From Acetobacteraceae bacterium (GTDB taxonomy: Bacteria > Pseudomonadota > Alphaproteobacteria > Acetobacterales > Acetobacteraceae), in assembly GCA_025452005.1 (NCBI GenBank), contig JANWJK010000365.1, positions 1 through 38,631 on the forward strand: DNA of 38,631 bases. Reading direction: 5' to 3'. The notes under the pieces are model-generated. The model had not been told where the DNA came from and searched no databases. It was given only the letters and a program-made list of their open reading frames with translations. Of the stretch, positions 22,404 through 38,631 are shown piece by piece. Within the stretch, counting starts at the first letter, position 1; every line of letters begins with the position of its first letter. The translations under genes were made by a program, and so were the position numbers.

Positions 22404-22471
22404 GATGGCGCCGATTGTCTCCCGGCGCAGCCCGGATAACAATGCGCCGACCCCGAAACAGGCACATCGAT

Positions 22472-23644: not shown

Positions 23645-23675
23645 GGATCGGCCTGCGACGACAGGGAGGACAAAT

Positions 23676-24374
23676 ATGATCGAGGTCTGGACCTGGCCGA
23701 CACCGAATGGCCACAAGGTGCACATTGCACTGGAGGAACTCGGGCTTCCCTACAAGCTGATCCCGATCAACATCGGCAAGGGCGACCAGTTCAAGCCGGA
23801 ATTTTTGAAGATCACGCCAAATCACCGCATCCCGGCCATCGTCGATCCCGACGGCCCTGGCGGCAAGCCGCTCACGTTGTTCGAGTCCGGCGCGATCATG
23901 ATCTACCTGTCCGAGAAGACCGGCGGGAAGCTGATCCCGAAGGACCCGGTCGGCCGCTACAAGTGCCTGGAATGGATGATGTTCCAGATGGGCGGCATCG
24001 GGCCGATGTTCGGCCAGTACCACCACTTCGCCAACTACGCGGTGGAGAGGCTCCCGTACGCGATCGAGCGCTATACCAACGAGGTGGCACGGCTGCACCG
24101 CGTGCTGGACAAGCGGCTGGGCGAGGCGACATGGCTTGCCGGCGACGAGTACAGTATGGCGGACATCATCACCTTCCCGTGGATCCGCGGCCCTGAGCTA
24201 CGCAATGTCAACCTGGACGACTATCCGCATGTGAAGCGCTGGCATGACACCATGGCTGCGCGCCCCGCGGTACAGCGCGGCGTGGCCGTGCTGGCGGACA
24301 GCAAGCGCAAGGGAATACTGACCGACGCCGAGAGGGAGGTCATGTTCGGCAAGACGCAGTTCGCCGTGCGATAA
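23676..24374 (+). CDS. YghU/YfcG-like (Nu class) glutathione transferase
   Basis: 232-residue thiol-handling enzyme. The N-terminal thioredoxin-like domain has MIEVWTWPTPNGHKVHIALE, with the Nu-class Thr/Asn in place of Tyr or Cys, ITPNHRIPAIVDPDGPGGKP and LFESGAIMIYLSEKTGGKLI; the helical C-terminal domain includes WMMFQMGGIGPMFGQYHHF and YSMADIITFPWI. E. coli YghU/YfcG show strong disulfide-bond reductase activity with glutathione, so the same is likely here. GGGAGGA lies 7 bases before the ATG. It follows sgaA by 31 bases and may be cotranscribed. Confidence 0.93.
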   Translation: MIEVWTWPTPNGHKVHIALEELGLPYKLIPINIGKGDQFKPEFLKITPNHRIPAIVDPDGPGGKPLTLFESGAIMIYLSEKTGGKLIPKDPVGRYKCLEWMMFQMGGIGPMFGQYHHFANYAVERLPYAIERYTNEVARLHRVLDKRLGEATWLAGDEYSMADIITFPWIRGPELRNVNLDDYPHVKRWHDTMAARPAVQRGVAVLADSKRKGILTDAEREVMFGKTQFAVR

Positions 24375-24395
24375 AGCAGCCGGCGTTCCGGCCTG

Positions 24396-25082
24396 TTACG
24401 CCATCTCCAGTACCCATGGCTCGGCGACGCCGAGCCCGCGTACGTCGATCCCGCCCGGCAGCCTCGCCGAATACGATTCGTGATGATGACCGTGCACGAT
24501 CAGCCGCGCCGCCGCGACCTCGGCCAGCCGGTCGATCGCGGCGAAGCCGTGGCGGTGGCACGACGGCGCCTCGTGCGTCACGAGCACGTCGAAGCGATGC
24601 TGCGCCAGCTTGGCGAAATCCTCGGGGAAGATCGAATCGCGGTGCCATAGCGGCAGCCCGCCGCGCCAGTGCTCGCTCGGCTTGAGGCTGTCGAGGAACT
24701 CACGCCGCGTGTTGAAGCTGGGCGGTTCGATTTTCCCGCCGGGTTCGTCCACGCGCGGATACCAGATGCGCGGCTTGAACACGCCGCCAAGACCGGCGAT
24801 GCGCAGTCCGCCGACCTCGATCACCTTGCCGCCGATATCGCCCTCGGGGAAGTCCGTCGCCAGGTGATCGAACGCTGTCGCCGTCTCGGCGTCCTTGTTG
24901 CCGATGATCCAGTGAATGCTCCAGCCCAGCGTAAACAGCGAACCCAGCATGTGGTGCAGCGGTACGCGCAGTTCGCAGTCGCCGAGCAGGATCAGCGTGC
25001 CCGGGTCCTCCGCTGCGCACGCGCGCAGGATCGGCGGGAAATTGCCGTGCGGGTCGCCGGCGATGACGATGGGTGAGAACAC
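24396..25082 (-). CDS. Calcineurin-like metallophosphoesterase
   Basis: 228-residue cytoplasmic phosphoesterase with the full metal-binding set: GDPHGN near the N terminus, GDCE, GNKD, THEAPSCHRHG and the C-terminal HGHHHESY. Two-metal chemistry on a phosphoester is expected, but the substrate is unknown. GTG 25082 was chosen because GAGG lies 9-12 bases before it and the motif order then starts at the usual distance (FSPIVIAGDPHGN). It lies 13 bases after the antiporter stop, so the two form an operon. Convergent with the glutathione transferase gene. Confidence 0.88.
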   Translation of the reverse strand: MFSPIVIAGDPHGNFPPILRACAAEDPGTLILLGDCELRVPLHHMLGSLFTLGWSIHWIIGNKDAETATAFDHLATDFPEGDIGGKVIEVGGLRIAGLGGVFKPRIWYPRVDEPGGKIEPPSFNTRREFLDSLKPSEHWRGGLPLWHRDSIFPEDFAKLAQHRFDVLVTHEAPSCHRHGFAAIDRLAEVAAARLIVHGHHHESYSARLPGGIDVRGLGVAEPWVLEMA

Positions 25083-25095
25083 GCGGGTACCTCGA

Positions 25096-26325
25096 CTATC
25101 CGGTGCGGCCGAAGCCCAGCAGACGCGCGGCCGGCCCAATGGTCCAGCCCTGGATAACGAGGGATACCACCACCACGACGAACACGCCGCAGAACAGTCT
25201 TTCGTCCCGCACCGGATCGCCCAGGGCGGGAAGGAAACTGAGATAGATCGGCACCGCGCCGCGCAAACCGACCCACGACGCGAAGGCCGACTCACGCCAC
25301 GGGTAGCGGAACGGCAGCAGGCAGGCGAACGTCGCGACCGGGCGCGCAACAACGATCAGCACCACGGCGACCAGGATGCTGACCGGAATGAACGGGACAA
25401 GGTCGTGCGGCGTGACCAGTATGCCGAGCATCAGGAACAGCACAATGTGCGCGAGCCAGGCGAACCCCTCGTAGAAGTTCGCGACCGCCTGCCGTGCGGG
25501 GTACTCGCTGGCGCCCATGACCACGCCGGCGATGTAGATCGCCAGGAAGCCGCTGGTGCCGACGACCTGGGCCAGCCCGAACAGCGCCAGGCCGAAGGTC
25601 AGCACCAGCACCATGGCGGTGGCGACCTCGAGCGACAGGCGCCGCAGCAGCAGCGCGAGCAGCCAGCCGCCAGCTATCCCCAGCACGGCACCGCCGATCA
25701 TCTCGCGCAGGAACAGCGATGCGCCGTTCTGCCAGGTCGCGACGGCGGGCTCGGTGATGACGCGGACGACGAAGATGGTGAGGAAGATCGACATCGGATC
25801 GTTCAGGCCTGACTCGACTTCCAGCAGCGCGACGACGCGTTCCGGCAGGGCGAGACGTGCCCGGGTGAGCATCGAGCCGACCGCGGCGGCGTCGGTCGGG
25901 GCGACCGCCGAGCCGAGCAGCATGGCATAGATGAAGGGCACGCCGCCCACGACCATGACGGTGGCCGCGACGATGCAGGCGGTAATGCCGACGCCGACCA
26001 CCGCCAGGGCAAGAGCCGGCCAGAGCGCAAGACGCAGCATTGAGAGAGGGGTCTTCAGGCCGCCTTCGAACAGGATGACCGCCAGCGCCACGCTGCCGAT
26101 CAGGTAGGCGGAGGTGAAGTCGCTGTAGGCTATGCCGCCCGGGCCATCCTCGCCTGCCAGCATGCCGAGGACCAGGAAGACCAGCAGTACCGGCGCGCCC
26201 AGGCCGCGGGAGGCGAGCGACGCAAAGATGCTGAGCACGCCCAGGGCGCCGCCGACGAGGATGAACTCGTGGGCCATCTCCATGTGCGCATGGCCGAGCG
26301 CCAGCAGTTGGGGTCCGATGGGCAT
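25096..26325 (-). CDS. CPA1-family (NhaP-type) cation/proton antiporter, short form
   Basis: Polytopic inner-membrane exchanger of Na+ or K+ for H+. 409 residues with about 12-13 hydrophobic helices and family motifs SVALAVILFEGGLKTPLSML, SAVAPTDAAAVGSMLTRARL, and VVALLEVESGLNDPMSIFLT (with the functional Asp), VGLRGAVPIYLSFLPALG near the end. It resembles the K+/H+ antiporter NhaP2/CvrA in its membrane part but lacks the cytoplasmic TrkA-C/CorC-like regulatory domains, so it is a membrane-domain-only form. ATG 26325 has only a weak ribosome binding site; an ATG at 26283 is the alternative. Followed by the metallophosphoesterase gene. Confidence 0.9.
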   Translation of the reverse strand: MPIGPQLLALGHAHMEMAHEFILVGGALGVLSIFASLASRGLGAPVLLVFLVLGMLAGEDGPGGIAYSDFTSAYLIGSVALAVILFEGGLKTPLSMLRLALWPALALAVVGVGITACIVAATVMVVGGVPFIYAMLLGSAVAPTDAAAVGSMLTRARLALPERVVALLEVESGLNDPMSIFLTIFVVRVITEPAVATWQNGASLFLREMIGGAVLGIAGGWLLALLLRRLSLEVATAMVLVLTFGLALFGLAQVVGTSGFLAIYIAGVVMGASEYPARQAVANFYEGFAWLAHIVLFLMLGILVTPHDLVPFIPVSILVAVVLIVVARPVATFACLLPFRYPWRESAFASWVGLRGAVPIYLSFLPALGDPVRDERLFCGVFVVVVVSLVIQGWTIGPAARLLGFGRTG

Positions 26326-26555
26326 GCCTGTTGAAGTTGTTGCCGGTTGGGGGGATGGAGGCAATGGCGCAGATCCGCATCGTCCCCCAACTCTGGACAG
26401 TCCCCGAACCACGCGTCAGGATTCGCCGCGGCAAGGCCGACCAGGAAAGGAAGTGGGCTCGGATCGCCATCTGCGGGCGGGTGGGCGTCGCGCCATCGCT
26501 CCGCAACCGCGAACGCAGTTATTGAAGCGCTGCGCATAACCGCGAGTGACCATGC

Positions 26556-27770
26556 ATGAATCCCGACGGCTCATCCGAACTTCGTACGTGGCTGACCCAG
26601 GCCGGGCTCGCCGGCAAGAGCGAGGCGGCGCTGCTGGACGGCTTCTGCCAGCGCGCGCTGGATGCTGGTTTGCCGATCGCCCGCGCCGCAATCATCATTG
26701 ACACCCTCCATCCAGTGCATGAGGGACGAGCTTTCTTTTGGCGCCGGGAAGCCGGGCAGGCGCACACCGAACTGGTCGAATACGGCCCGACCACCGAGGG
26801 CGAAGCACTGGAGAACTGGCGGCGCACCGTCTTTTTCCACCTGCTTGAGAGCGGCGAATCGTCGTATCGGGTGCGTTTCCACGCCGGCGAAACCACAGAG
26901 TTCCTAAGACTCGCCCACATGCGCGAGGAAGGGATGAGCGACGTTGCCGCCATGATCACCCGTTTCCCACGCTCGGGGGCGATCGGCGAGATGGATTCTC
27001 TGTACTCCTATTGGGCAACCGATCGTCCGCGCGGTTTCGATGACCCGCAACTGGCGGCGATAGGTCGATTGATGCCGATGTTGGCGCTTGCGGTGAAATG
27101 CGTTTCGCTCGCACGCATCGCAGGGACGCTCGTCGAAACCTATCTCGGCCGCGATGCCGGGCGCCGCGTCCTCCAGGGACGCATCCGACGCGGGATCGCC
27201 GACAAAATCAGCGCCGTGCTGTGGTACAGTGACCTGCGCGGATTCACCCGGATAACCGATCAGTCGGCGCCGGAACAGATCATTCCGCTGCTCAACGACT
27301 ATGCGGAGGCGGTGATTTCCGCAATTCACGGCAATGGCGGCGACGTGCTGAAGCTGATCGGCGACGGCACGCTGGCGATCTTCACCGCAACGACGGCCGA
27401 GGAAGCCTGCCGCAGTTCAATTGCCGCACATAACCTCTTGCAGGAGCAGCTTGCCCGGCTCAATCAACGCCGCACCGGGGACCACCTGCCGATCACGGAT
27501 GTCTATGTCGGTCTTCACATCGGTGAAGTGTTCTACGGCAACATCGGCAGTGACGAGCGACTCGACTTCACTGTGGTCGGACCGGCCGTCAACGAGGTCG
27601 CTCGTATCGCGGCAATGTGCCGATCGGCAGAGCGCAATGTCCTGCTCTCTCAGGCCTTCGCAGACGCCATGGCATCCAAACATCGGCTGGTGTCCGTCGG
27701 CCGTTATGCATTGCGCGGCGTCGAGCGGCCGCAGGAGCTGTTCACACTCGATCCGTTCCGGACAACGTGA
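26556..27770 (+). CDS. Class III adenylate/guanylate cyclase
   Basis: 404-residue soluble protein with an uncharacterised N-terminal region (about 1-200; GAF-like by pattern only) and a C-terminal class III cyclase catalytic domain (about 215-395). Metal and substrate residues are present: WYSDLRGFTRITDQSAPEQI (first Asp), VLKLIGDGTLAIFTATTAEE (second Asp, with the Lys that fits ATP), and LDFTVVGPAVNEVARIAAMC (Asn and Arg for transition-state binding). It most likely makes cAMP. The 224 bases upstream (26332-26555) show no other gene. MATE follows after 39 bases. Confidence 0.9.
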   Translation: MNPDGSSELRTWLTQAGLAGKSEAALLDGFCQRALDAGLPIARAAIIIDTLHPVHEGRAFFWRREAGQAHTELVEYGPTTEGEALENWRRTVFFHLLESGESSYRVRFHAGETTEFLRLAHMREEGMSDVAAMITRFPRSGAIGEMDSLYSYWATDRPRGFDDPQLAAIGRLMPMLALAVKCVSLARIAGTLVETYLGRDAGRRVLQGRIRRGIADKISAVLWYSDLRGFTRITDQSAPEQIIPLLNDYAEAVISAIHGNGGDVLKLIGDGTLAIFTATTAEEACRSSIAAHNLLQEQLARLNQRRTGDHLPITDVYVGLHIGEVFYGNIGSDERLDFTVVGPAVNEVARIAAMCRSAERNVLLSQAFADAMASKHRLVSVGRYALRGVERPQELFTLDPFRTT

Positions 27771-27809
27771 ATTGGCGGCAAGACGACAACCACCCGCGCC
27801 AGGTGCGGC

Positions 27810-29252
27810 ATGAGCAGCGCAGCCGCTGCACCTGCGCCGCACCCGCGCCACAACCCGCAGACCCAGGCGTTGCTGCACGGAAGCATCGTGCCGACACTGC
27901 TGCGGCTGGCGTGGCCCACCGTGCTGGTGATGCTGGCGCAGTCGTCCAGCGGCCTGATCGAGACGTGGTTCGTCTCCCGCCTGGGGACCGACGCGCTTGC
28001 CGGCATGGCGCTCGTGTTCCCCGGCTTCATGATGATGCAGATGCTGTCCGGCGGCGCGATGGGCGGCGGCATCTCCTCGGCGATCGCCCGCGCACTCGGT
28101 GCCCGCCGGCACGCCGATGCGGATGCGCTGGTGCTGCACGCGGTGATTATCAACGTGGCGCTCGGCCTGATGTTCTCCGTGCTGGTGCTGCTGTTCGGCC
28201 CGTCGCTGTATCGCGCACTTGGCGGCGAGGACGGATCGCTGGACGCGGCGCTGCGTTACTCGAACGTGGTGTTCGCCGGGACCGCGCTGGTGTGGCTGCT
28301 GAATGCGCTGGCCAACGTGATCCGTGGCACCGGCAACATGTTCGTTCCGGCGGCGGCGATCTGCACCAGCGTGCTGCTGCTGGTGCCGTTGTCGCCGTGC
28401 CTGATCTTCGGCCTCGGGCCGTTTCCCGCTCTCGGCATCGCCGGCGGCGGCGTGGCCATCGTGGCCACCAGCGCGCTGACCGCGTCGGTGCTCGGCTGGT
28501 ACATCCTGTCGGGCCGGAGCATCGTGCGTCTGCGGTTGGTGCCACTGCGCTGGGCGCTGTTCCGCGAAATCCTGCGCGTCGGCGGTGTCGCCGGGATCAC
28601 CACATTGCAGACGACCCTGACCATTGCACTGACCACCGCCTTGGTGGGCGCCGCGGCAGGGCCGGATGCGATCGCCGGGTTCGGCACGGGCGGACGCCTG
28701 GAATACCTGCTGGTGCCGTTGGTATTCGGGCTGGGAGCGCCGCTGGTCGCGCTGGTCGGCACCAACATCGGCGCCGGTCAGGGGGCGCGGGCGTTGCGGA
28801 TCGCCCTGACGGGCGGCGTGCTGGCCTTCGTGATCACCGAAGCCATAGGGGTGACGGCGGCGATCTGGCCCAACGCATGGCTCGGGCTGTTCGGCCATGA
28901 CCCTCGGATGCTGGAGACCGGCACCGCCTATCTGCGGACCGTCGGGCCGGCATACGGGTTCTTCGGGCTGGGGCTGTCGCTGTACTTCGCCTCGCAGGGC
29001 GCGGGGCGGTTGTTCTGGCCGTTGCTCGCCGGAATGCTGCGCCTGGTCATCGCGATTGGCGGCGGCTGGCTGGCGTTGCGCGTTACGGGATCGCTCGGCT
29101 GGGTGTTCGTGGCGCTGAGTGCGGCGCTGGTTACATACGGCGTAACGCTGTCGGCCGCGATCGCGTCGGGCGCGTGGTTCGGTCGTAGACGATGGCCTGC
29201 GGGGAGGGCACTGCCTCCTCTGCCACGCGGGCCGGCGAACGCCGGCCCCTGA
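27810..29252 (+). CDS. MATE-family multidrug/toxin exporter
   Basis: 480-residue inner-membrane exporter with about 12 helices. It starts after a proline-rich N terminus (HPRHNPQTQALLHGSIVPTL) with LRLAWPTVLVMLAQSSSGLI, ETWFVSRLGTDALAGMALVF, MGGGISSAIARALGARRHAD, and in the second half GPDAIAGFGTGGRLEYLLVP and LGAPLVALVGTNIGAGQGAR. These match MATE proteins (MatE domain twice), which use a H+ or Na+ gradient to expel cationic drugs or metabolites. Substrate unknown. The C-terminal end overlaps a strong hairpin. Convergent with the EmrB-like gene. Confidence 0.94.
   Translation: MSSAAAAPAPHPRHNPQTQALLHGSIVPTLLRLAWPTVLVMLAQSSSGLIETWFVSRLGTDALAGMALVFPGFMMMQMLSGGAMGGGISSAIARALGARRHADADALVLHAVIINVALGLMFSVLVLLFGPSLYRALGGEDGSLDAALRYSNVVFAGTALVWLLNALANVIRGTGNMFVPAAAICTSVLLLVPLSPCLIFGLGPFPALGIAGGGVAIVATSALTASVLGWYILSGRSIVRLRLVPLRWALFREILRVGGVAGITTLQTTLTIALTTALVGAAAGPDAIAGFGTGGRLEYLLVPLVFGLGAPLVALVGTNIGAGQGARALRIALTGGVLAFVITEAIGVTAAIWPNAWLGLFGHDPRMLETGTAYLRTVGPAYGFFGLGLSLYFASQGAGRLFWPLLAGMLRLVIAIGGGWLALRVTGSLGWVFVALSAALVTYGVTLSAAIASGAWFGRRRWPAGRALPPLPRGPANAGP
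29229..29248. terminator. Possible bidirectional terminator hairpin between convergent transporters
   Basis: GGGCCGGC (29229-29236), loop GAAC, GCCGGCCC (29241-29248) is a perfect 8-bp GC stem that overlaps the last codons of the MATE gene. It lies between two convergent genes but lacks a run of T on either side, so a classical intrinsic terminator is not shown; it may act in part or be only the coding sequence. Confidence 0.35.
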
Positions 29253-29284
29253 AGCTGGACCACCAAGAGCGGTGCGTGCCCATC

Positions 29285-30904
29285 TTATTCGGATCCGATC
29301 CGCGCGCCTTTCTCTGCGACGGAGCGTTTCATCAGCAGCACGACAAACGCAAGCGCGACCATGACGACGGCCAGCACCCAGAACACGTCGAAGTAAGCGA
29401 GCGCCGATGCCTGTTGCTGGCGCAGGTTTCCAAGCGCCTGCAAGGCCAGTTGCTGCGCGGCGACTGGATCGCCGGTCTGCTGTAGGAACGGCCCGGCAGC
29501 CTGATCAAGGAAGGACCGTGCCGCCGCGTTGAAGGGATCGAGCCATTCGCCGAGACGAAGGCTGTGGAACTGGTCACGGCGCTCCTGCATTGTCTGAGCC
29601 AGCGAGGTCCCCACGCTGCCGCCCTCGTTGCGCAGGAGGCTCAACAGACCGACCGCCGCTCCACGCAGCGCGAGCGGCGTATAGAGGTAAGCCGCCACGT
29701 TCGCGGGGGCGAAGCACATCGCCAGCCCGATGATCAGCACCACCCGCGGCCAGACGGCCTGCCCCGGACTGATGTCGAGGTTCATCTGCGACATCCAGTA
29801 ATTCCCCGCAGCCATGGTCAACAGGCCCGCGGCAATCACCCACCGCGCATCGGTTCCACGACCGAGCGTTCGCCCCACGATCGGCATGGCGACGACGGCA
29901 AAGAACCCGGCCGGCGACATGACCAGTCCGGCGCTCAGTGCATCGTAGCCGAACAATGACTGGAGCAAAGCAGGCAGCGAGGTGCTGGCAGCGTACAGCA
30001 CCGCGAAGGCGCAGAAGATGATGATGCAGCAGGCGGCGAAGTTCCTCTCGCGCAGCGGCCGGAAATTGACCACCGGACTCGGATGACGCAGTTCCCAGAA
30101 GATCAGCCCGGCCAAGCCGACGGCGAAAAGCATCGCCAGCGTCTGCACACGCCAGAACGGGTCGCTCAGCCAGTCCCATTCCTGGCCCTTGCTGAGCGCC
30201 ACCTCCCAACAGACGACGACGATGACCAGGAGCGACAAGCCGATGCCGTCAAAGCTGAACGGCCGCCTGCGCAACTCCATGCGCTGTGCCGTGAGATAAT
30301 CGGGGTCCCGAAGCGTGATGGCACACGCACTCAGGGCCAGAAGCCCGACGGGCACGTTGATCCAGAACACCCACCGCCAGGAGTAGTCGTCGGTTATCCA
30401 GCCGCCGAGGGTCGGACCGACGACGGGCGCGATCAGCGCGGCCAGGCCGAACAGCGTCATGGCCATGCCTTGCCGCTCGACCGGGAAGGCGTCGAGCAGC
30501 ACGCCCTGGCTCGACGGCTGAAGACCGCCGCCGGCAAGACCCTGGAGCACGCGGAACAGGATCAGTTGCCCGAGGCTCGTGGCCATGCCGCACATCCCCG
30601 AGGCGAGGGTGAATACGGCAATGGAAAGCAGGAAATAGTTGCGGCGCCCAAGGTGCGCGATCAGCCAGCCGGTGATGGGCAGGATGATCGCGTTGGCGGC
30701 AAGGTAGCTGGTAATGACCCACTCGCCGTCATCGACCGTGGCCGACAGCCCGCCCGCGATATAGCGCAGCGCGACGACGGCGATCGTGGTGTCGAGCACT
30801 TCCATGAAGGTCGGCACCACGACAACAGCGGCGACGACCCAGGGGTTTGTCGCAGCACGGGATCGTGAATTCAGGAGTGTCGACGACAGTGCCGCGCCGG
30901 TCAT
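29285..30904 (-). CDS. emrB: EmrB-like DHA2 family drug efflux permease
   Basis: 539-residue major-facilitator exporter with about 14 transmembrane helices. Signatures are VVVVPTFMEVLDTTIAVVAL, DDGEWVITSYLAANAIILPI, TGWLIAHLGRRNYFLLSIAV, FRVLQGLAGGGLQPSSQGVL, and LFGLAALIAPVVGPTLGGWI, typical of DHA2/EmrB. It is expected to work with the periplasmic adaptor EmrA and an outer-membrane channel (not in the window) to expel hydrophobic compounds. The ATG overlaps the emrA stop by 3 bases (coupled translation). No TetR- or MarR-type repressor is adjacent. Confidence 0.94.
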   Translation of the reverse strand: MTGAALSSTLLNSRSRAATNPWVVAAVVVVPTFMEVLDTTIAVVALRYIAGGLSATVDDGEWVITSYLAANAIILPITGWLIAHLGRRNYFLLSIAVFTLASGMCGMATSLGQLILFRVLQGLAGGGLQPSSQGVLLDAFPVERQGMAMTLFGLAALIAPVVGPTLGGWITDDYSWRWVFWINVPVGLLALSACAITLRDPDYLTAQRMELRRRPFSFDGIGLSLLVIVVVCWEVALSKGQEWDWLSDPFWRVQTLAMLFAVGLAGLIFWELRHPSPVVNFRPLRERNFAACCIIIFCAFAVLYAASTSLPALLQSLFGYDALSAGLVMSPAGFFAVVAMPIVGRTLGRGTDARWVIAAGLLTMAAGNYWMSQMNLDISPGQAVWPRVVLIIGLAMCFAPANVAAYLYTPLALRGAAVGLLSLLRNEGGSVGTSLAQTMQERRDQFHSLRLGEWLDPFNAAARSFLDQAAGPFLQQTGDPVAAQQLALQALGNLRQQQASALAYFDVFWVLAVVMVALAFVVLLMKRSVAEKGARIGSE

Positions 30905-32391
30905 TGCCTGGTGCCCGACGCGCTGGCGGTCGGACCAAGGTTCGGAGACTGCGGAGCATAGGCCTGGAGAAACTTGCCGGCATCGGGTCCGGTTGGCGGC
31001 TTCTTGATATAGACGGTGGGCACGACCGAAGTGCCGATGAACAGTGGTGTCTGATCGGCGTTGTAATCGACGAGATCGATCCGGACCGGCAACCGCTGGA
31101 CTACCTTGACGAAATTGCCCGTGGCGTTCTGCGGCGGCAGCAACGCGAGGGTCGATCCGGTTCCCATGGTGAAGCCGGCGACACGGCCGTTGAAGATGTG
31201 CTTGCCGCCATACATGTCGACGCGCAGCTCGACGGGCTGCCCGATGCGCAGGTCGCCCAACTGCGTTTCCTTGAAGTTGGCGTCGACCCAGATTTCGTTG
31301 AGCGAGCGAATCGCCATCAGGTTCTGCCCGACCTGGACATAGTTGCCCGGATTGACGTTGCGCCGCGTGACGACGCCGTCGATGTCCGCGACGATGTCGG
31401 TGTAACGAAGATCCAGTTCGGCCTGCGCGAGATCGCGCCTGGCGGCTTCGAGTTTCGCCTCGGCTTGCTTGACGGCGGGAGCATTGGCGGTGAATTGGGC
31501 GAACGTGCTGTCGATGTCACCCAGTTTTTCGAACTCCTCGAGCATCGCTTTCGGGCCCTGGTCGAACGAGTGCACGACGCCGAGCTGAGCGGCACTCTGA
31601 ATCAGTTCCGCCTGCGCCTGGAGGACGGACGAATAGGTCTCGTCGAGATCGGGCGGCACCTGGCCGAGATCCCCGCTCCCGTCCTGTTGGGTTGGCAGTC
31701 CCAGCGAGACGCGGGTCTGGTAGACTTCGGCCAGGCTCTGGGCGAGTTCCGCGCCAGCCGTCGTCAGCTCCGCTTGCCGCCGGTCATATTCCGCACGCGG
31801 CACATCGGCCCTGGCGACGAGTTGCCGCGCCCGATCGAATTCAAGCTGCGCCAGTGCCAGCGCGGCCTTGCTCTTGTCGACGGCGGCGACCCGCTCGCGA
31901 AGGAGAGCGACCTGGCTGTCGACATCCTGCACGGCGCGTTGCAGGTTCCAACGTCGGCTCCTTGCCTGCGCTTCGATGGCGCGCACCGCCGCGGTGGCTG
32001 CTTGCAGGTCTGCTCTCGCAGTGTCGACCGCCGCCTGCTTCTCGGAGACCGCAACCCGGTACGGCTCCTTGTCCAGCTCGGCGAGGAGTGCTCCCTTGTG
32101 CACACGGTTGTTGTCATCCACCAGAACGCGGGAGATCTGTCCTGCCACGCGGGGCGCAACAAACGTCACATGTCCGTTCACGAATGCGTCGTCGGTGGAG
32201 ACGGTGTGGAGCATCTCCTCGACCCACGGGATACCGAACACGAGGAGAACCGCCAGGACGACGACGCCGAGCACACCGGCGAGAAGCGTTCGCTTCCGCG
32301 TAGTGGTTTTCGCGTCGTGGGCAGCCGAAGCGTCTGTATCCGCTGTCGGTTGCGCATCGATCGAACCTGGCTCGCTGCTCTGCTCGGTCAT
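30901..32391 (-). CDS. emrA: EmrA-like membrane fusion protein
   Basis: 496-residue HlyD/EmrA adaptor with one N-terminal transmembrane helix (TLLAGVLGVVVLAVLLVFGI), a biotinyl-lipoyl-like half (TVSTDDAFVNGHVTFVAPRV, AGQISRVLVDDNNRVHKGAL), a long coiled-coil hairpin (about residues 110-320) and the returning barrel (DIVADIDGVVTRRNVNPGNY, LNEIWVDANFKETQLGDLRI). It links the EmrB permease to an outer-membrane channel. ATG 32391 (MTEQSSEPGSIDAQP) is the best start; the frame continues upstream through a repeat sequence, which yields a false extension. Length is longer than E. coli EmrA (390) because of a longer hairpin and N-terminal tail. Confidence 0.92.
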   Translation of the reverse strand: MTEQSSEPGSIDAQPTADTDASAAHDAKTTTRKRTLLAGVLGVVVLAVLLVFGIPWVEEMLHTVSTDDAFVNGHVTFVAPRVAGQISRVLVDDNNRVHKGALLAELDKEPYRVAVSEKQAAVDTARADLQAATAAVRAIEAQARSRRWNLQRAVQDVDSQVALLRERVAAVDKSKAALALAQLEFDRARQLVARADVPRAEYDRRQAELTTAGAELAQSLAEVYQTRVSLGLPTQQDGSGDLGQVPPDLDETYSSVLQAQAELIQSAAQLGVVHSFDQGPKAMLEEFEKLGDIDSTFAQFTANAPAVKQAEAKLEAARRDLAQAELDLRYTDIVADIDGVVTRRNVNPGNYVQVGQNLMAIRSLNEIWVDANFKETQLGDLRIGQPVELRVDMYGGKHIFNGRVAGFTMGTGSTLALLPPQNATGNFVKVVQRLPVRIDLVDYNADQTPLFIGTSVVPTVYIKKPPTGPDAGKFLQAYAPQSPNLGPTASASGTRQ

Positions 32392-32829
32392 GTCGGGCAC
32401 CCGTTGCAAGTGCGACGAATACGGACGGCGTGAAAAGACTACCACTCGTGCTGACCGGCAAGATACCTCGGCTGCCGCATTCCCACGGGCTCGTCGAAGG
32501 AACGTACCGACTGCCCCTGTCATTGCGAGGAGCGAAGCGACGAAGCAATCTCCACGGAGATTGCTTCGCTGCGCTCGCAATGACACAGGGGCGAGCCTCG
32601 CGTTCGCAGTCAGGGTGAATTGCGGTCCCATAAGGACGTCTCTGATTGTTGCCAGAGGGTCGAGAACAAAAATGCGTGATTGGGCGCCGATCGCGGTCCC
32701 GCTCTTTGCCACCCGGTTGCGAGACTTCCAGCGATCCAACGCAAATCCGCTTTCCGTCGTGGGGGTTCAAGGCGCTGGACGCCCAACAAGCACCTTGCTA
32801 TCGCGTCCTGAAAGCCGTCAGGCGCATCG
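32392..32829. other. 438-base gap between divergent emrA and KirBac genes
   Basis: No convincing gene is seen. The gap holds a palindromic repeat (32514-32591, listed separately) and should contain the promoters of emrAB and the channel. Short open frames here are translations of the repeat or lack start signals. Confidence 0.6.
32514..32591. repeat. Palindromic interspersed repeat of the TCATTGCGAGGAGCGAAG type
   Basis: Imperfect inverted repeat with a 2-base loop. The 5' arm (32514-32553) runs CCCCTGTCATTGCGAGGAGC through GAAGCAATCTCC; the 3' arm (32556-32591) returns GGAGATTGCTTCGCTGCGCT through CAATGACACAGGGG. The arms differ by a small insertion and a few bases. This element is scattered in intergenic DNA of many Proteobacteria and is often mistranslated as SLRAQRSNL-type peptides. 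It could fold as a long hairpin in RNA from either strand. Confidence 0.85.
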
Positions 32830-33786
32830 ATGCAAAAGGGACGGGAACCCGCTACTGGAATGGAGCGTGATCGCCGCGAACCAGCAGCGCGGGTTCGCCT
32901 TGGCTCCTACGAGTTAAAGAAGAAGGGAGTTTCGCGCTTCGACATGCGCGACCCCTACCATCTCGCAGTTGCGCTGACCTGGCCGCAGTTCCTCGCAGGC
33001 TTGCTTGCGATCTACTTGCTCGTGAATGTCGTCTTCGCCATCCTCTTTTGGCTGATTCCGGGTTCCGTGGCCAATGCTCGGCCGCATAACTTCGGTGATG
33101 CCTTCTTCTTCAGCATCGAGACGCTGGCGACGGTCGGCTATGGCGAGATGTATCCTTCGACGCTGTACGGCCATGTGATTGCAGCAACCGAAATCGTCGG
33201 CGGACTCGCCTTCACGGCGATCGTGACCGGCCTGACCTTTGTCCGCTTTTCGCGCCCGCGGGCCAAGTTGATCTTCGCCGCCAACCCGGTTGTGGCGATT
33301 CATAATGGCAAGCCGACGTTGATGTTGCGAGTTGGGAACGGACGCCTGGCCGTGCTTTTGGACGCGGCGGCAAAGCTGAACGTGCTTCTTTCCATTACGT
33401 CCTCGGAGGGCAAGCGTTTCCGTCGTGTGCAGGAGTTGCGGCTCGAGCGGGCGCACCTGCCCGCCTTTCCTCTAACCTGGACACTCATGCATGTGCTGGA
33501 CGAGCAGAGCCCCTTGCACGGGTACGATACGGAGCGAGTAATAGCAGCGGGCACGCAACTTTTCGTGACACTCGAAGCGCGCGACCCGACGCTCGCGGCG
33601 TTGGTGCACGACATCCGTAACTATAGGCCAGAAGATATACGGTTCGGGATGCGCTACGCAGATGCCGTGATCATTGCAGAGGACGGCACGCCGGTCGCGG
33701 ATCTGACCAAGATCGGAGCTCTGGAGCCGGATGCGGGCGACCATCTGGAGCCGGGCTGGACGGAGCGGGAAGAAGCACTGGAGTGA
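32830..33786 (+). CDS. KirBac-type inward-rectifier potassium channel
   Basis: 318-residue inner-membrane tetrameric K+ channel. The amphipathic slide helix region is LGSYELKKKGVSRFDMRDPY; TM1 follows (LAGLLAIYLLVNVVFAILFW), then the pore helix and filter (DAFFFSIETLATVGYGEMYP, with TVGYG), TM2 (HVIAATEIVGGLAFTAIVTG), and a cytoplasmic beta-rich Kir domain (KPTLMLRVGNGRLAVLLDAA, TWTLMHVLDEQSPLHGYD). Start is uncertain between ATG 32830 and 32860; the ATG at 32944 would delete the slide-helix lead that KirBac proteins share, so it was rejected. Gating ligand unknown. Confidence 0.93.
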   Translation: MQKGREPATGMERDRREPAARVRLGSYELKKKGVSRFDMRDPYHLAVALTWPQFLAGLLAIYLLVNVVFAILFWLIPGSVANARPHNFGDAFFFSIETLATVGYGEMYPSTLYGHVIAATEIVGGLAFTAIVTGLTFVRFSRPRAKLIFAANPVVAIHNGKPTLMLRVGNGRLAVLLDAAAKLNVLLSITSSEGKRFRRVQELRLERAHLPAFPLTWTLMHVLDEQSPLHGYDTERVIAAGTQLFVTLEARDPTLAALVHDIRNYRPEDIRFGMRYADAVIIAEDGTPVADLTKIGALEPDAGDHLEPGWTEREEALE

Positions 33787-33940
33787 ACTCACATCAATTT
33801 AACTTGCTCGTGCGGCTGGCTGCGCGGTAGGCGACGGCTATCCGCGCTATATGGCCCGATTACGAGTATTTGAGTCAGGCGAGAGCGTCGCGATGACGCC
33901 CGGTTTGCTGATGCCGGGATCGTCGCGCTGCCTGCCGTCG

Positions 33941-33949
33941 AAGGTCTTT
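33941..33949 (+). promoter_or_regulatory. AAGGTCTTT box upstream of the first SDR-type gene
   Basis: AAGGTCTTT lies 39 bases before the ATG at 33989. It matches eight of nine bases of AAAGTCTTT boxes found about 53-54 bases before the paralogous SDR-type gene and before the cyclase gene further on. A common operator or promoter element is inferred from position and similarity only. Confidence 0.35.
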
Positions 33950-33988
33950 TCCCGAAGATTCCCAATCGTCGACAAGGGAGGTTGAGCG

Positions 33989-34741
33989 ATGAAAATCGTC
34001 GTCATTGGCGGCACCGGCCTGATCGGCTCCAAGACCGTCGCCATCCTGCGCCAGGGCGGCCATGAGGTCGTTGCGGCCTCTCCCCAAAGCGGGGTCAACA
34101 CCATCACCGGCGAGGGAGTCAAACAGGTTGTAGCCGGCGCGCAGGTGGTAATCGACCTCGCCAACTCACCTTCATTTGAGGACAAGGCGGTACTGGAATT
34201 CTTCCAGACCTCTGGCCGCAACCTTCTAGCGGCGGAGGCCGCAGCGGGCGTCCGGCACCATGTCGCGCTCTCGATCGTCGCAACAGACCGGACAGACAAC
34301 GGCTATTTCCGCGGCAAGGTCGCCCAAGAGAGACTGATCGTGGCCTCCGGCATCCCCTACACCATCATCCGCGCGACCCAGTTCCTGGAATTCCTCGGCG
34401 GCATCGCCGATTCGAGTACGGATGGAAACAGCGTCAGGCTTCCGCCCTGCCTCTTTCAGCCCATCGCGGCGGACGACGTTGCTGCCGTTGTTGCCGATGT
34501 GGCGCTCGCGGCACCGCGCGGCAGCATCGTCGAGATCGCCGGCCCGGAACGAGCACAGTTCAGCGAAATCATCGCCCGCTATCTGAAAGCAGTCGATGAC
34601 CCGCGTAAGGTCGTGAGCGACCCCGAAGCCCAATATTGGGGTGGCCGCGTCGAGGAGCGTTCGCTCGTGCCGTTGGGCGAAGCCCGTCTCGGCCGCATCG
34701 GTTTAGACGAGTGGGTCCGCCGCTCACGGGCGAAAGCCTGA
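33989..34741 (+). CDS. NmrA-like NAD(P)-binding atypical SDR protein, copy 1
   Basis: 250-residue cytoplasmic protein with an N-terminal Rossmann fold: MKIVVIGGTGLIGSKTVAIL (GxxGxxG dinucleotide loop), VIDLANSPSFEDKAVLEFFQ, VRHHVALSIVATDR, GIPYTIIRATQFLEFLGGIA. It belongs to the atypical SDR/NmrA-like group, which includes both enzymes (quinone or flavin reductases) and redox sensors; the catalytic YxxxK motif is not evident, so its reaction is unknown. GGGAGG lies 10 bases before ATG 33989. A paralogue is encoded on the other strand at 35605-36348. A cupin gene follows after 30 bases. Confidence 0.9.
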   Translation: MKIVVIGGTGLIGSKTVAILRQGGHEVVAASPQSGVNTITGEGVKQVVAGAQVVIDLANSPSFEDKAVLEFFQTSGRNLLAAEAAAGVRHHVALSIVATDRTDNGYFRGKVAQERLIVASGIPYTIIRATQFLEFLGGIADSSTDGNSVRLPPCLFQPIAADDVAAVVADVALAAPRGSIVEIAGPERAQFSEIIARYLKAVDDPRKVVSDPEAQYWGGRVEERSLVPLGEARLGRIGLDEWVRRSRAKA

Positions 34742-34771
34742 TCGCATCCGCCAACCGAAGGACGAGGCTCC

Positions 34772-35188
34772 ATGCAACGCATCCTCTGTTCGCTGCTTGT
34801 CGCCACACTGCCGTTCGGTGGCGTCCACGCGGACACGCCGAAGGAGAAGAGCGCCAAGGTGACCCTCGTCTACCAGCACGAGTTGCCGAATGTCCCAGGC
34901 AAGAGCATCAAGGGCGTGCTCGTCGAATATGGCCCGGGCGGTTACTCGCCTGGCCACACACATCCCAAATCCGCCTTCATCTACGCCACCGTGCTTGAGG
35001 GAGCGATGCGCAGTCAGGTCAACGACGGACCGGTGACGACCTACAAGGCCGGGCAGAGCTTCTCCGAGCTGCCCGGCGACCGCCACGCGGTCAGCGCCAA
35101 TGCCAGCAAGACGAAGCCGTGCAAGCTCCTCGCGGTGTTCGTGGTGGATACGAACGAGACGGAACTGACGATCCCGTTCGGGAACTGA
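34772..35188 (+). CDS. Exported cupin-domain protein
   Basis: 138-residue secreted protein. A signal peptide (MQRILCSLLVATLPFGGVHA) precedes a single cupin barrel with PGGYSPGHTHPKSAFIYATV and LEGAMRSQVNDGPVTTYKAG and SELPGDRHAVSANASKTKPC, containing the metal-binding His-His-Glu type residues (GHTHPK and PGDRH). Periplasmic cupins of this kind are of unknown function; some bind metals or quench small molecules. GAAGGACGAGG precedes the ATG. Cotranscribed with the SDR-type gene upstream. Confidence 0.9.
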   Translation: MQRILCSLLVATLPFGGVHADTPKEKSAKVTLVYQHELPNVPGKSIKGVLVEYGPGGYSPGHTHPKSAFIYATVLEGAMRSQVNDGPVTTYKAGQSFSELPGDRHAVSANASKTKPCKLLAVFVVDTNETELTIPFGN

Positions 35189-35192
35189 GGTC

Positions 35193-35483
35193 TCAGTCGC
35201 GCCGATCCAGGTCGGCGAGCGCCTGTTGGTCAGCCTGGCAGCGCCGGTTGCTGATCGGGGTGCGCGCACCGGTTTTGGTGTCTAGCATCAGGGCCTTCGC
35301 CAGCGCCCGCACGCAGGCATGGTCCAGACCGTTCTGGTCACGACATAGAAAGAGCGCCTCTGACATCGCGGGTGACGCCGCGGCGGCCTGGCTGGTCGCC
35401 GGCTTCGGTGTCAGCGGCAAAACAGCGGCCCACAGGGCAATGAGCCCGACTGCCACTGCGGCGGCTTTGATGAACTGGCGCAT
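35193..35483 (-). CDS. Small exported hypothetical protein
   Basis: 96 residues with an N-terminal hydrophobic segment (MRQFIKAAAVAVGLIALWAA, VLPLTPKPATSQA) that is either a signal peptide or an anchor, then a short soluble part with three cysteines (LFLCRDQNGLDHACVRALAK and NRRCQADQQAL). No family recognised. AGGACAG precedes ATG 35483. It is convergent with the cupin gene, with 4 bases between the two stops. The 121 bases between it and the second SDR-type gene show no other gene. Confidence 0.65.
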   Translation of the reverse strand: MRQFIKAAAVAVGLIALWAAVLPLTPKPATSQAAAASPAMSEALFLCRDQNGLDHACVRALAKALMLDTKTGARTPISNRRCQADQQALADLDRRD

Positions 35484-35604
35484 GACGATCTGTCCTATGC
35501 GTGATGAACGTCACGGAGGACCCTGCCGGCCCCAGTTGGGCCGGCGCGGCGTCCGGGGATAATCACGATCGCACCTTGCTTTGCGAAGCGCAGATCGCTC
35601 CGCG

Positions 35605-36348
35605 CTATGCCTGGGCCAGCCACGTTTCGAACGACGTGGGGCCGATGTGCGGGTTGTCGCCGGGGGTGAGGGACTTGTCGTTCAGCTCCGCGCCGAAATA
35701 GCGCGCGTGGATGTCGGTAACCACTTCGCGGGTATCGTGCTTTGCTGCGAGATAGCGGCGGACGAGATCGTCGAGACCGATGCGTTCCGGTCCGGCCAGT
35801 TCGATCACCCCGTTCGCTGGCGCCAGCGTTGCCACCTTGGTCACCAGAGCGGCGACGTCGTCGGACGCAACAGGCTGCAGATGAGCCGGCGACAGGCGAA
35901 CGCGCTGGCCATCGCTCGCCGATTGAGCGATCCCGCCGAGAAACTCGAAGAACTGGGTGGAGCGGATGATCGTGTAAGGGATTCCGGATGCTTTGATCAG
36001 CTCCTCCTGGGCGGCCTTCGCGCGAAGGTAGCCGCTTTCCGGCAGGCGGTCGGTGCCGACCACCGACAGAGCGATGTGATGTCGCACGCCGGCAACCTTT
36101 TCTGCCGCGGCGAGGTTACGGCCCGCCGTCTTGAAGAAGTCCAGCACGGCTGCGTCCGCGAACGAGGGGGAGTTCGCGACGTCGATGACGATCTGCGCAC
36201 CCGCGAGAGCTTCGGATAGTCCTTCTCCGGTGATGGTGTTGACGCCTGTGTTGGGTGCCGCCGCGATGACCTCGTGGCCCATCTGACGCAGATTCGACAC
36301 AACCTTGCTGCCGATGAGGCCGGTGCCGCCGATGACAACGATCTTCAT
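35605..36348 (-). CDS. NmrA-like NAD(P)-binding atypical SDR protein, copy 2
   Basis: 247-residue paralogue of the protein encoded at 33989-34741, sharing MKIVVIGGTGLIGSK, GVNTITGEG, AGAQ-VIDxANSPSF, VRHHxALSxVxTDR, GIPYTIIRxTQFxEFLGGIA and AGPER. The loop GGTGLIGSK binds NAD(P). The two differ mostly in the C-terminal half, which in this copy ends NPHIGPTSFETWLAQA. Same role limits apply as for copy 1. ATG 36348 follows GGAGAAG. The arrangement (two paralogues facing each other around a cupin and a small exported gene) suggests a local duplication with later insertion or inversion. Confidence 0.9.
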   Translation of the reverse strand: MKIVVIGGTGLIGSKVVSNLRQMGHEVIAAAPNTGVNTITGEGLSEALAGAQIVIDVANSPSFADAAVLDFFKTAGRNLAAAEKVAGVRHHIALSVVGTDRLPESGYLRAKAAQEELIKASGIPYTIIRSTQFFEFLGGIAQSASDGQRVRLSPAHLQPVASDDVAALVTKVATLAPANGVIELAGPERIGLDDLVRRYLAAKHDTREVVTDIHARYFGAELNDKSLTPGDNPHIGPTSFETWLAQA

Positions 36349-36402
36349 GATTGCTTCTCCGTCCTTGGGGTCGATGAACGGAGGATGGCCGAGAGCGCGC
36401 GG

Positions 36403-36429
36403 AAAGACTTTGCCGCGACGTCCAAATGG
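36403..36429 (-). promoter_or_regulatory. AAAGTCTTT box and CGTCCAAATGG box upstream of SDR copy 2
   Basis: On the minus strand AAAGTCTTT (36403-36411) lies 54 bases before the SDR start. Next to it CGTCCAAATGG (36419-36429, plus-strand reading) is identical in eleven bases to a sequence at 37642-37652 before the wHTH/TolB gene. A further GTCCAAA occurs at 36442-36448. They are candidate binding sites for a local regulator; this is inference from shared sequence. Confidence 0.4.
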
Positions 36430-36495
36430 CCTTGGGTTTTTGTCCAAAGATGTTGGAGACCGCGGTGCTCCGGGACCGGAAACGGGTCGTAGGTC

Positions 36496-37500
36496 TCAAG
36501 TCGACGGTGCCCCGGACCGCCCATGCGCGGTCGCTGGTCCGGGGGTCAACCGCAGGCTGAGCGCACCGACGATCTCGTGCGTGACCTCGTCCTGCACGGC
36601 GAAGACGTCGGTGAGATCCCGGTCGTAACGGTCTGCCCAGACGTGCATTCCCGTCGCGGCGTCGATCAGCTGGGCGGTGATGCGCACCCGATTGTCGACC
36701 TTCCGCACACTGCCTTCGACCACGTATCGGACGCCCAGCTCGCGACCAACCTGGGTCACGCTGACCGGACGGCCCTTGTAGGTGAAGGTCGAATTGCGCG
36801 CGATAACCTGCAGGCCGGCGATCCTTGAGAGGTCGGTGATGAGGTCCTCGGCCAGCCCGTCGGCGAAGTACTCCTGCTCGGGGTCAGCGCTCAGGTTGTC
36901 CAGCGGCAGCACCGCGATTGAGGACCTGCCTGGAGGGGCGGGAACGGGTGAAGGCGCCGGTCCGGCCAGGTCGAGGGCGATCCGGTACGCGCGGACGGGT
37001 CGGGCGATGTTCTTCATGCGTTGCTCGCCCAGATCCTCGAACCGCACGGTGGCGATCTTGTCTTGCACCTGCTCGTGCGCCGAGGCCGACAAGCAGATGC
37101 CGCCCGGCTCCGCCAAGGCCTCCAGGCGGGCGGCCACGTTGACGCCATCGCCGTAGAGGTCGCCGTTCTGCACGATTACGTCGCCAAGGTTGAGACCGAT
37201 CCGAAACGCCAGCCGCCTGTCCTGTGGTACGGCGCGGTTGCGCGCGGCCATGCCCTGCTGGATATCGACGGCGCACCTGACCGCGTCGACCACACTGGCG
37301 AACTCGACGAGCAGGCCGTCACCGGTTGTCTTGACGATCCGGCCGGCGTGCTGGGCAACGGCGGGATCGATCAACTCGCGCAGGTGCGCCGTCAGCGCGG
37401 TCAGGGTGCCGTCCTCGTCGGCGCCCATGAGCCGGCTGTAGCCGGCGACGTCGGCCGCAAGGATCGCGCAGAGCCGCCGCGCGCTTCTTTCCGCTGCCAT
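36496..37500 (-). CDS. Class III cyclase fused to TolB-like domain, lacking the usual TPR part
   Basis: 334-residue cytoplasmic protein. The N-terminal class III cyclase domain (about 10-180) has AILAADVAGYSRLMGADEDG, GRIVKTTGDGLLVEFASVVD, and LYGDGVNVAARLEALAEPGG, with metal Asp, Lys and Asn/Arg all present, so cAMP synthesis is likely. A TolB-N/FlgO-like domain follows (about 193-315; SSIAVLPLDNLSADPEQEYF, ARNSTFTYKGRPVSVTQVGR, VVEGSVRKVDNRVRITAQLI). Family members normally continue with several TPR repeats for a total near 600 residues; this one stops at SLRLTPGPATAHG. The truncated form may still be functional. Divergent from the wHTH/TolB regulator gene that shares the second domain. Confidence 0.9.
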   Translation of the reverse strand: MAAERSARRLCAILAADVAGYSRLMGADEDGTLTALTAHLRELIDPAVAQHAGRIVKTTGDGLLVEFASVVDAVRCAVDIQQGMAARNRAVPQDRRLAFRIGLNLGDVIVQNGDLYGDGVNVAARLEALAEPGGICLSASAHEQVQDKIATVRFEDLGEQRMKNIARPVRAYRIALDLAGPAPSPVPAPPGRSSIAVLPLDNLSADPEQEYFADGLAEDLITDLSRIAGLQVIARNSTFTYKGRPVSVTQVGRELGVRYVVEGSVRKVDNRVRITAQLIDAATGMHVWADRYDRDLTDVFAVQDEVTHEIVGALSLRLTPGPATAHGRSGAPST

Positions 37501-37553
37501 GCCCGTGTGCCGTGCCGTAATCGTGTGAGCCGACTGTGCGGATTGGCGGGCAG

Positions 37554-37562
37554 AAAGTCTTT
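37554..37562 (-). promoter_or_regulatory. AAAGTCTTT box upstream of the cyclase/TolB gene
   Basis: AAAGTCTTT (plus-strand reading) lies 53 bases before the cyclase start at 37500, at nearly the same distance as the identical 9-mer before SDR copy 2. The core is near-palindromic (AAAG-T-CTTT), so it reads almost the same on both strands. Confidence 0.4.
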
Positions 37563-37601
37563 TCAGCCGCCTTGTGGCATGCTTGAATTTCGCATGATTG
37601 T

Positions 37602-37654
37602 TCGTCCAAGGACGATACGGTCAGGCGGAGGCTCGCCGCTTCGTCCAAATGGAC
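37602..37654. promoter_or_regulatory. Two palindromic GTCCAA-type sites before the wHTH/TolB regulator
   Basis: TCGTCC-AA-GGACGA (37602-37615) and GTCCA-AA-TGGAC (37643-37654) are perfect inverted repeats. They share TTCGTCCAA as a direct repeat at 37601 and 37640, 39 bases apart. They lie 17-69 bases before the regulator's GTG and so could be operators for autoregulation or for the divergent cyclase (inference). Confidence 0.5.
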
Positions 37655-37670
37655 CATCGCGTGGGGCTGC

Positions 37671-38631
37671 GTGCGATACCGGTTTGGCGATTTTGTGCTC
37701 GATTCCGACCGGCGGGAGCTCGCCCGTGGGGCCGAGACGATTGTCATCGGACCGCAGGTTTTCGACTTGCTGCTTCATCTGGTGCGGAACCGCGAACATG
37801 TCGTGACCAAGGACAATCTGATCGATGTGGTCTGGGGCGGCCGGATCGTTTCGGAATCCACCCTGACCAGCCACATCAACGCGGTACGCAGGGCAGTCGG
37901 TGACACCGGCGACGAACAACGCCTGGTCCGTACGATCGCGCGCAAGGGCTATCGGTTTGTCGGTGACGTTGGGGAAACCGCTGCGGCAGCAGGAGCGGGT
38001 GGCGCCAAGTCGGATGTGACCGGCCTGCCCGTTCCGGAACGGCCATCCATCGCTGTCCTGCCATTCCTGAACCTCAGCGGCGACCCAGGCCAGGATTACT
38101 TCGTGGACGGCGTGGTGGACGACATCATCTCCGCCTTGTCCCGACTGCGTTGGCTCTTCGTCATCGCGCGCAATTCAAGCTTCACCTACAAGGGGCGAGC
38201 CATCGACGTAAAGCAGGTGGGCCGTGAACTTGGCGTGCGCTACGTACTGGAAGGCAGCGTGCGCAAGGCGGCGAACCGGGTGCGGATTACCGGCCAGATC
38301 ATCGATGCCAACGCGGGAGCCACTCTCTGGTCGGAGCGCTTCGAAAGTGCGCTGGACGACGTCTTCGAATTGCAGGACGAGATGGCCACCAGCATCGTCG
38401 GCGCGCTGGTGCCGCACCTGGAGCGCGCGGAGATCGAGCGCGCGCGCCACAAGCCGACCGAAAGTCTCGACGCCTACGACCACTACATGCGTGGCATGTG
38501 GAAGTTCCGGCAGGTTTCCAGGGGCGCTTCCGACGAGGCGTTGCCACTGTTTTACGAGGCAATCCAGCGCGATCCGGAATTCGCGTCGGCCTATGCCATG
38601 GCCGCCTGGTGCCATTCCTGGCGCAAGCTCA
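37671..38631 (+). CDS. Winged-helix (OmpR-type) regulator with TolB-like and TPR domains, 3' end beyond window
   Basis: The open frame runs to the window end with 320 codons present. The N terminus is a Trans_reg_C winged-helix DNA-binding domain (residues about 1-100; FGDFVLDSDRRELARGAETI, GPQVFDLLLHLVRNREHVVT, WGGRIVSESTLTSHINAVRR, IARKGYRFVGDV) with no receiver domain before it, as in CadC-like and other one-component regulators. A TolB-N/FlgO-like domain follows (about 120-250; PSIAVLPFLNLSGDPGQDYF, ARNSSFTYKGRAIDVKQVGR), then the first TPR-type helices (LDAYDHYMRGMWKFRQVS, LPLFYEAIQRDPEFASAYA). The GTG at 37671 gives the standard start; no in-frame ATG lies nearby upstream. Divergent from the truncated cyclase. 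It has no stop codon in the window. Confidence 0.88.
   Translation, partial: MRYRFGDFVLDSDRRELARGAETIVIGPQVFDLLLHLVRNREHVVTKDNLIDVVWGGRIVSESTLTSHINAVRRAVGDTGDEQRLVRTIARKGYRFVGDVGETAAAAGAGGAKSDVTGLPVPERPSIAVLPFLNLSGDPGQDYFVDGVVDDIISALSRLRWLFVIARNSSFTYKGRAIDVKQVGRELGVRYVLEGSVRKAANRVRITGQIIDANAGATLWSERFESALDDVFELQDEMATSIVGALVPHLERAEIERARHKPTESLDAYDHYMRGMWKFRQVSRGASDEALPLFYEAIQRDPEFASAYAMAAWCHSWRKL

Follow-up and report, generated by a model that had tools for sequence, protein, structure and literature searches.

We favor, with moderate confidence, the reading that a gene for an unusually short class III adenylate cyclase was inserted into an older module of a winged-helix (wHTH) regulator and an SDR gene, an event that would have placed cAMP synthesis under the transcriptional control of the regulator. 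A transcriptional link is the likeliest connection between the two proteins and the one with the best support. This account starts from what could be shown: the gene order, the domain content, intact catalytic residues, a short cyclase that recurs in a second species, purifying selection, and a DNA site that is nearly restricted to the module. The window analyzed here, 38,631 nucleotides long, is the whole of contig C365 (JANWJK010000365.1) from an Acetobacteraceae bacterium whose genome assembly (G000; 5.02 Mb) is 74% complete. At its right end, the order of genes is NmrA/SDR (minus strand), 334-aa class III cyclase (minus strand), and then the divergent wHTH regulator (plus strand). The sequence-only reading had described a truncated cyclase and a divergent wHTH regulator that both carry a TolB-like domain, and both genes were confirmed at their positions:

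35605..36348, minus strand: NmrA/NAD(P)-binding SDR gene (Pfam NAD_binding_10/NmrA), whose relatives are the divergent partner of the regulator in four other genomes
36421..36447, minus strand: second copy of the 27-bp site, TTGGACAAAAACCCAAGGCCATTTGGA, upstream of the SDR gene (from alignment and pattern search)
36496..37500, minus strand: short class III adenylate cyclase, 334 aa, with the catalytic domain at aa ~6-175, the TolB-like domain at aa ~188-320, and no TPR
36541..36939, minus strand: TolB-like domain of the cyclase (TolB-N/FlgT/PelC fold, by AF2 model and VIA-align)
37501..37670, no strand: divergent intergenic region of 170 bp between the cyclase and regulator starts
37583..37609, minus strand: 27-bp shared site, TTGGACGAACAATCATGCGAAATTCAA, upstream of the cyclase, candidate operator of the regulator
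37671..38631, plus strand: wHTH-TolB-TPR regulator that starts with GTG and runs off the contig (full-length ortholog, L068:3241-4824)
37737..37958, plus strand: OmpR-type winged helix (Trans_reg_C) of the regulator, Pfam aa 23-96
38034..38408, plus strand: TolB-like domain of the regulator, 63% identical to that of the cyclase

The cyclase is predicted to make cAMP, as judged from its class III catalytic domain and intact catalytic residues. Pfam Guanylate_cyc matches aa 11-164 (E = 8e-13; 48.8 bits against a curated cut-off of 21.9), and the closest solved structure, 3mr7 from Silicibacter pomeroyi, is 52% identical (TMt 0.93). The residues that we take to be the metal-binding aspartate pair (D17/D61), the adenine-specifying pair (K57/D114), and the transition-state pair (N121/R125) are all present; in an alignment of 46 sequences, D17, D61, and N121 are invariant and R125 is nearly so. 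The protein thus has the same catalytic and TolB-like domains as the class III cyclases with TolB-like and TPR parts, for which 3mr7 is the nearest catalytic domain, but it ends 14 aa after the TolB-like match, where ~270 aa are usual, and so falls outside the subfamily defined by a C-terminal TPR region of that length. How usual such a tail is could be counted: the loci compared contain 120 distinct cyclase+TolB frames. Four of these are truncated at the 3′ end; the remaining 116 are complete, and a TPR tail of 240-310 aa is present in 109 of them, as the earlier reading had supposed. The other tails measure 129-198 aa (three frames), 406 aa (one), and less than 100 aa (three: the window cyclase with 14 aa, its Dongia deserti ortholog with 11 aa, and the paralog C224 of the same genome with 29 aa). 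C224 was rejected as a second short example, because it breaks off inside the first TPR near a contig end; so was G035:C199, where a second frame continues the cyclase and points to a frameshift or assembly error.

The absence of TPR repeats from the cyclase, also noted from the sequence at the outset, does not reflect a recent frameshift. The ATG of the SDR gene (at 36348) lies 147 bp downstream of the cyclase end, which leaves no room for a broken TPR part, and no TPR remnant was found in these 147 bp. Moreover, the Dongia deserti cyclase (locus L068), 87% identical over residues 1-320, is just as short and lies divergent to the ortholog of the regulator. Its chain likewise stops soon after the TolB-like domain, and by our reading, the DNA that follows encodes a small DoxX-like membrane protein instead of TPR. 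For window versus Dongia deserti, we obtained dN/dS of 0.079/0.294 (NG86) and 0.064/0.566 (YN00) for the cyclase, 0.095/0.322 (NG86) for its TolB domain, and 0.067/0.398 (NG86) for the regulator. These values, well below 1, indicate that the short cyclase and the divergent regulator are both under purifying selection, and since the same short form occurs in both species, the truncation is shared and constrained rather than fresh. A same-genus ortholog of the cyclase was absent from the one congener compared (G051), where the best match is 60% identical and full-length.

The regulator begins with an OmpR-type winged helix (Pfam Trans_reg_C; E = 8e-16; 58.4 bits against a cut-off of 26.2). Its TPR part, which the earlier reading took as given, is visible in the window at its start alone (TPR_19, E = 0.0027, below the Pfam cut-off), because position 38631 is the end of the contig, and was recovered in full in the Dongia deserti ortholog, a complete wHTH-TolB-TPR regulator that stands head to head with the short cyclase. 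Dongia deserti thus supplies an equivalent of the sequence beyond 38631. In the window's own genome, no other contig yielded the missing C terminus: the best match in that genome spans residues 3-329 of 528, and the matches on other contigs, at ≤58% identity, belong to other proteins. By hydropathy, the Dongia deserti ortholog has no transmembrane helix (highest 19-residue hydropathy, 1.27), so the regulator is probably soluble. CadC/HilA-type regulators have the same N-terminal winged helix, with NCBIfam scores of 68.8 of 589 bits for HilA/EilA and 58.4 of 400 bits for CadC, which lie below the equivalog cut-offs and are lower bounds since the window protein is incomplete. CadC is, however, membrane-integrated, unlike the Dongia deserti ortholog, which moreover has a TPR tail.

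The pairing itself is rare. Among 79 loci surveyed, 54 extend ≥1.5 kb upstream of the cyclase start, and just one of these (L068, Dongia deserti) has a wHTH-TolB regulator there, which rules out a divergent pairing conserved across the family. Such a survey had been proposed from the sequence as a check; it did not support the split-system idea, and no cyclase stands next to the regulator's nearest relatives. After that of Dongia deserti, the closest regulators are those of G017 (contig C275), G067 (C9), and G078 (C22), and each of them directly faces an SDR gene that is 62-65% identical to the SDR gene of the window. For the more distant regulators examined, the same neighborhood comparison found no SDR gene; one example, in G303 (51%), also lacks the shared site described below. 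Between the window block 35605-38631 and Dongia deserti, DNA identity is 86-89%, and the other matches of more than 300 bases between window positions 19000-38631 and that species show 64-78% identity. The congener G051, which matches the window elsewhere at about 79%, is without the module. This high identity in Dongia deserti, together with the absence from the congener, suggests a horizontal spread of the regulator-cyclase-SDR module, and with such a spread being possible, the two short-cyclase pairs count as one shared event rather than two independent ones. The adjacency of cyclase and regulator, found in two species with 86-89% identical DNA, may have spread by transfer and is a thin basis for arguments about function.

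What ties the cyclase to the module is a DNA site. Nine upstream sequences (the regulator-SDR intergenic regions, the cyclase and SDR upstream regions of the window, and those of four Dongia deserti genes or gene remnants) can be aligned across a block that begins with TTGGAC. The beginning of this 27-bp site is ~100 bp upstream of the cyclase start and likewise of the SDR start, and the copy at the cyclase is 62 bp away from where the regulator starts. The cyclase copies have an 11-nt stretch in common with the regulator-SDR regions of G017, G067, and G078. In the window and Dongia deserti, the SDR-only copies lack it, a pattern consistent with placement of the cyclase under the copy on the regulator side. 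When a weight matrix was built from those three other genera alone, it ranked the cyclase upstream region first in the window (37.0 bits) and the SDR upstream region second (25.1 bits), followed by 11.0 bits for the next hit and compared with 15.8 bits for the best of 40 Markov-1 simulated windows.

We also derived an IUPAC pattern from all nine sites, the window's own included, the sites having first been aligned by eye after TTGGAC was seen. Allowing up to one mismatch in six genomes, it gave nine matches, all within the module, and none for the reversed control; in the window's own genome, it hit the cyclase and SDR upstream copies alone and none of the other cyclases, and in the congener G051 there was no match. 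Across 395 genomes of the order, five exact matches occurred in just four genomes (two in G000 and one each in G017, G067, and G078). Since the module itself supplied the sites for the pattern, these exact matches are partly circular, and the near-independent evidence consists of the three-genome matrix and of G401, a member of the same genus as G017. G401 has one of the two single-mismatch matches in the 395 genomes, located between a regulator (wHTH 73%) and an SDR gene (65%) that proved on inspection to be an orthologous pair; the other, in G187, has no regulator or SDR gene near it. Matches with two mismatches were scattered and also arose with the reversed control, and they were not used. 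Neither the neighborhood of a match in G366 (no module) nor the second SDR gene of the window (33986-34741, 60% identical; no site) adds to the set. Taken together, the alignment and the searches make the 27-bp site a candidate operator that is probably bound by the regulator; alternatively, what is conserved could be the promoter of the divergent gene. Copies of the site also accompany gene remnants in Dongia deserti: one lies between a second regulator paralog beside the first (L068:944-3240) and an apparent SDR remnant divergent to it, and one belongs to a further SDR-like remnant start (~L068:6630-6740).

In the transcriptional account that we favor, the ancestral unit would be a soluble CadC/HilA-like one-component regulator (OmpR-type wHTH, TolB-like domain, and TPR) that faces an NmrA-type SDR gene, with the conserved ~27-bp site between them as its probable binding site. 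In the window's genome and in Dongia deserti, a TPR-less cyclase gene would have been inserted between the two, immediately under the copy of the site nearest the regulator, with the SDR gene having a copy of its own. The regulator would sense some signal via its TolB-TPR part, bind the shared sites, and switch the short cyclase, and hence cAMP output, together with the SDR gene; the loss of TPR may have removed one input of a cyclase that is presumably active.

The sequence-only reading had taken the TolB-like domains as the meeting point of the two proteins, and here the comparison was less favorable. By sequence, the domain is recognized weakly (LpoB, E = 0.0096, below cut-off; FlgO domain in the PDB, E = 0.016), and its fold was assigned from an AF2 model of the cyclase domain (pLDDT 91.0). 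In VIA-align, this model scored Z 15.8 to FlgT, ~14 to the TolB N-terminal domain, 13 to PelC, and 11 to CsgG, with 114-130 of its 133 residues aligned at Z about 14-16 to FlgT and TolB, so that the shared domain is predicted to have this TolB-N-like fold; the periplasmic part of CadC (3ly7) aligns as well (Z 9.6, rmsd 3.6, 113 aligned). TolB, FlgT, PelC, and CsgG are periplasmic or outer-membrane proteins, whereas the domain here sits in predicted cytosolic signaling proteins. The domains of cyclase and regulator are about 61-63% identical, and the motifs quoted as shared, ARNSxFTYKGR and GRELGVRYVxEGSVRK, are real but family-wide, occurring in strict form in 29 and 17 of 94 aligned TolB domains. 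In a ranking by similarity to the cyclase domain, the partner regulator came 97th of 102 domains (window plus the 79 loci, the list starting with the query itself), and median identity was 64% for other cyclases and 57% for regulators. The partner is thus among the least similar, which rules out close TolB similarity as a sign of pairing, and since the similarity is family-wide, it gives no argument for a private homotypic contact.

These data bear directly on the alternative that the short cyclase docks on the regulator by TolB-TolB contact, the two replacing a single-chain protein. Such proteins do exist: intact cyclase-wHTH-TolB-TPR chains were found in three genomes (L251:809-3082, L255:1456-3597, and L256:1420-3597), namely in G051 of the window's own genus (757 aa), G535 (713 aa), and G505 (726 aa), and in a class search of 385 genomes (E ≤ 1e-50), matches spanning cyclase and wHTH were listed for G535 and G505 only, the query source G051 being unlisted. 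They have the same four domains as the window pair, but in one polypeptide with one TolB-like domain, as opposed to two genes with one each. They make a joint cyclase-regulator function plausible and do not show that separate products bind. Docking would also accord with the oligomeric state of TolB-fold relatives (the PelC dodecamer and TraT decamer are among the fold matches) and with the retention of the short cyclase, its TolB domain under constraint, in two species. Against it stand the low rank of the partner domain, the 13 cyclase-TolB and 8 wHTH-TolB proteins of the same genome, which would cross-talk under a purely homotypic code, the nearest regulators without a cyclase neighbor, and the third adjacent case, a divergent pair in G067 (C25) with a full-length, TPR-bearing cyclase and another gene in between. 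A split by homotypic contact has no specific support, and we regard docking as improbable; the fuller proposal, that the pair is a split single-chain protein in which enzyme and transcription factor share one TolB/TPR sensor and answer one signal in one complex, is slightly more doubtful still. From the original idea of a split system, a functional link remains, through the shared upstream site and the rare fusions, but not a specially similar TolB pair.

Two other readings would do without any regulatory purpose. The cyclase might be a decaying or functionless remnant that lost its TPR on moving and is kept by linkage alone, as the paralog C224 ending within the first TPR, the truncated SDR genes that remain in Dongia deserti behind the same upstream element, and the dozen C-terminal residues that differ between the two species might suggest; yet dN/dS of about 0.1-0.3 across both cyclase domains, with 85-87% identity between two species that both keep the reading frame and the catalytic residues intact, makes this unlikely. 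About as unlikely is a chance adjacency of genes from two large families (20 Guanylate_cyc matches in this genome) without any regulatory relation. The single pair among 54 loci would fit it, but Dongia deserti shows the same arrangement, the cyclase sits immediately below the site of the module, and a rough estimate (13 cyclases × 8 regulators / ~4,800 genes / 2) gives ~0.01 expected divergent pairs.

At the level of search results in the open-licence literature, no description of these cyclase or regulator proteins was found, and as far as such searches show, the inputs of the dozen or more cyclase-TolB-TPR proteins in a genome of this kind are undescribed. A small test of regulator-cyclase pairing, and of the role of the TPR tail, is offered by a short cyclase that shares one DNA site with a regulator whose accessory domains are those of the cyclase-TolB-TPR proteins. 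If active, the single-chain proteins would combine the roles of transcription factor and cAMP producer; in that of G051, we read a Gln at the position of the expected adenine-specifying Lys.

Some further arrangements were seen along the way. L183:4514-7771 encodes a 1085-aa protein with an N-terminal wHTH, then a class III cyclase, and then a long region that looks ATPase/TPR-like by eye, and cyclases in L109, L121, L123, L131, and L142 have two TolB-like domains in one chain, apparently from a duplicated TolB-TPR unit. The cyclase set of the window's genome is strongly expanded for its 5.0 Mb. The window itself holds a second class III cyclase (26556-27770, 404 aa), whose first ~215 residues have no Pfam match at E 0.01, and an inward-rectifier-type potassium channel (IRK) gene at 32830-33786.
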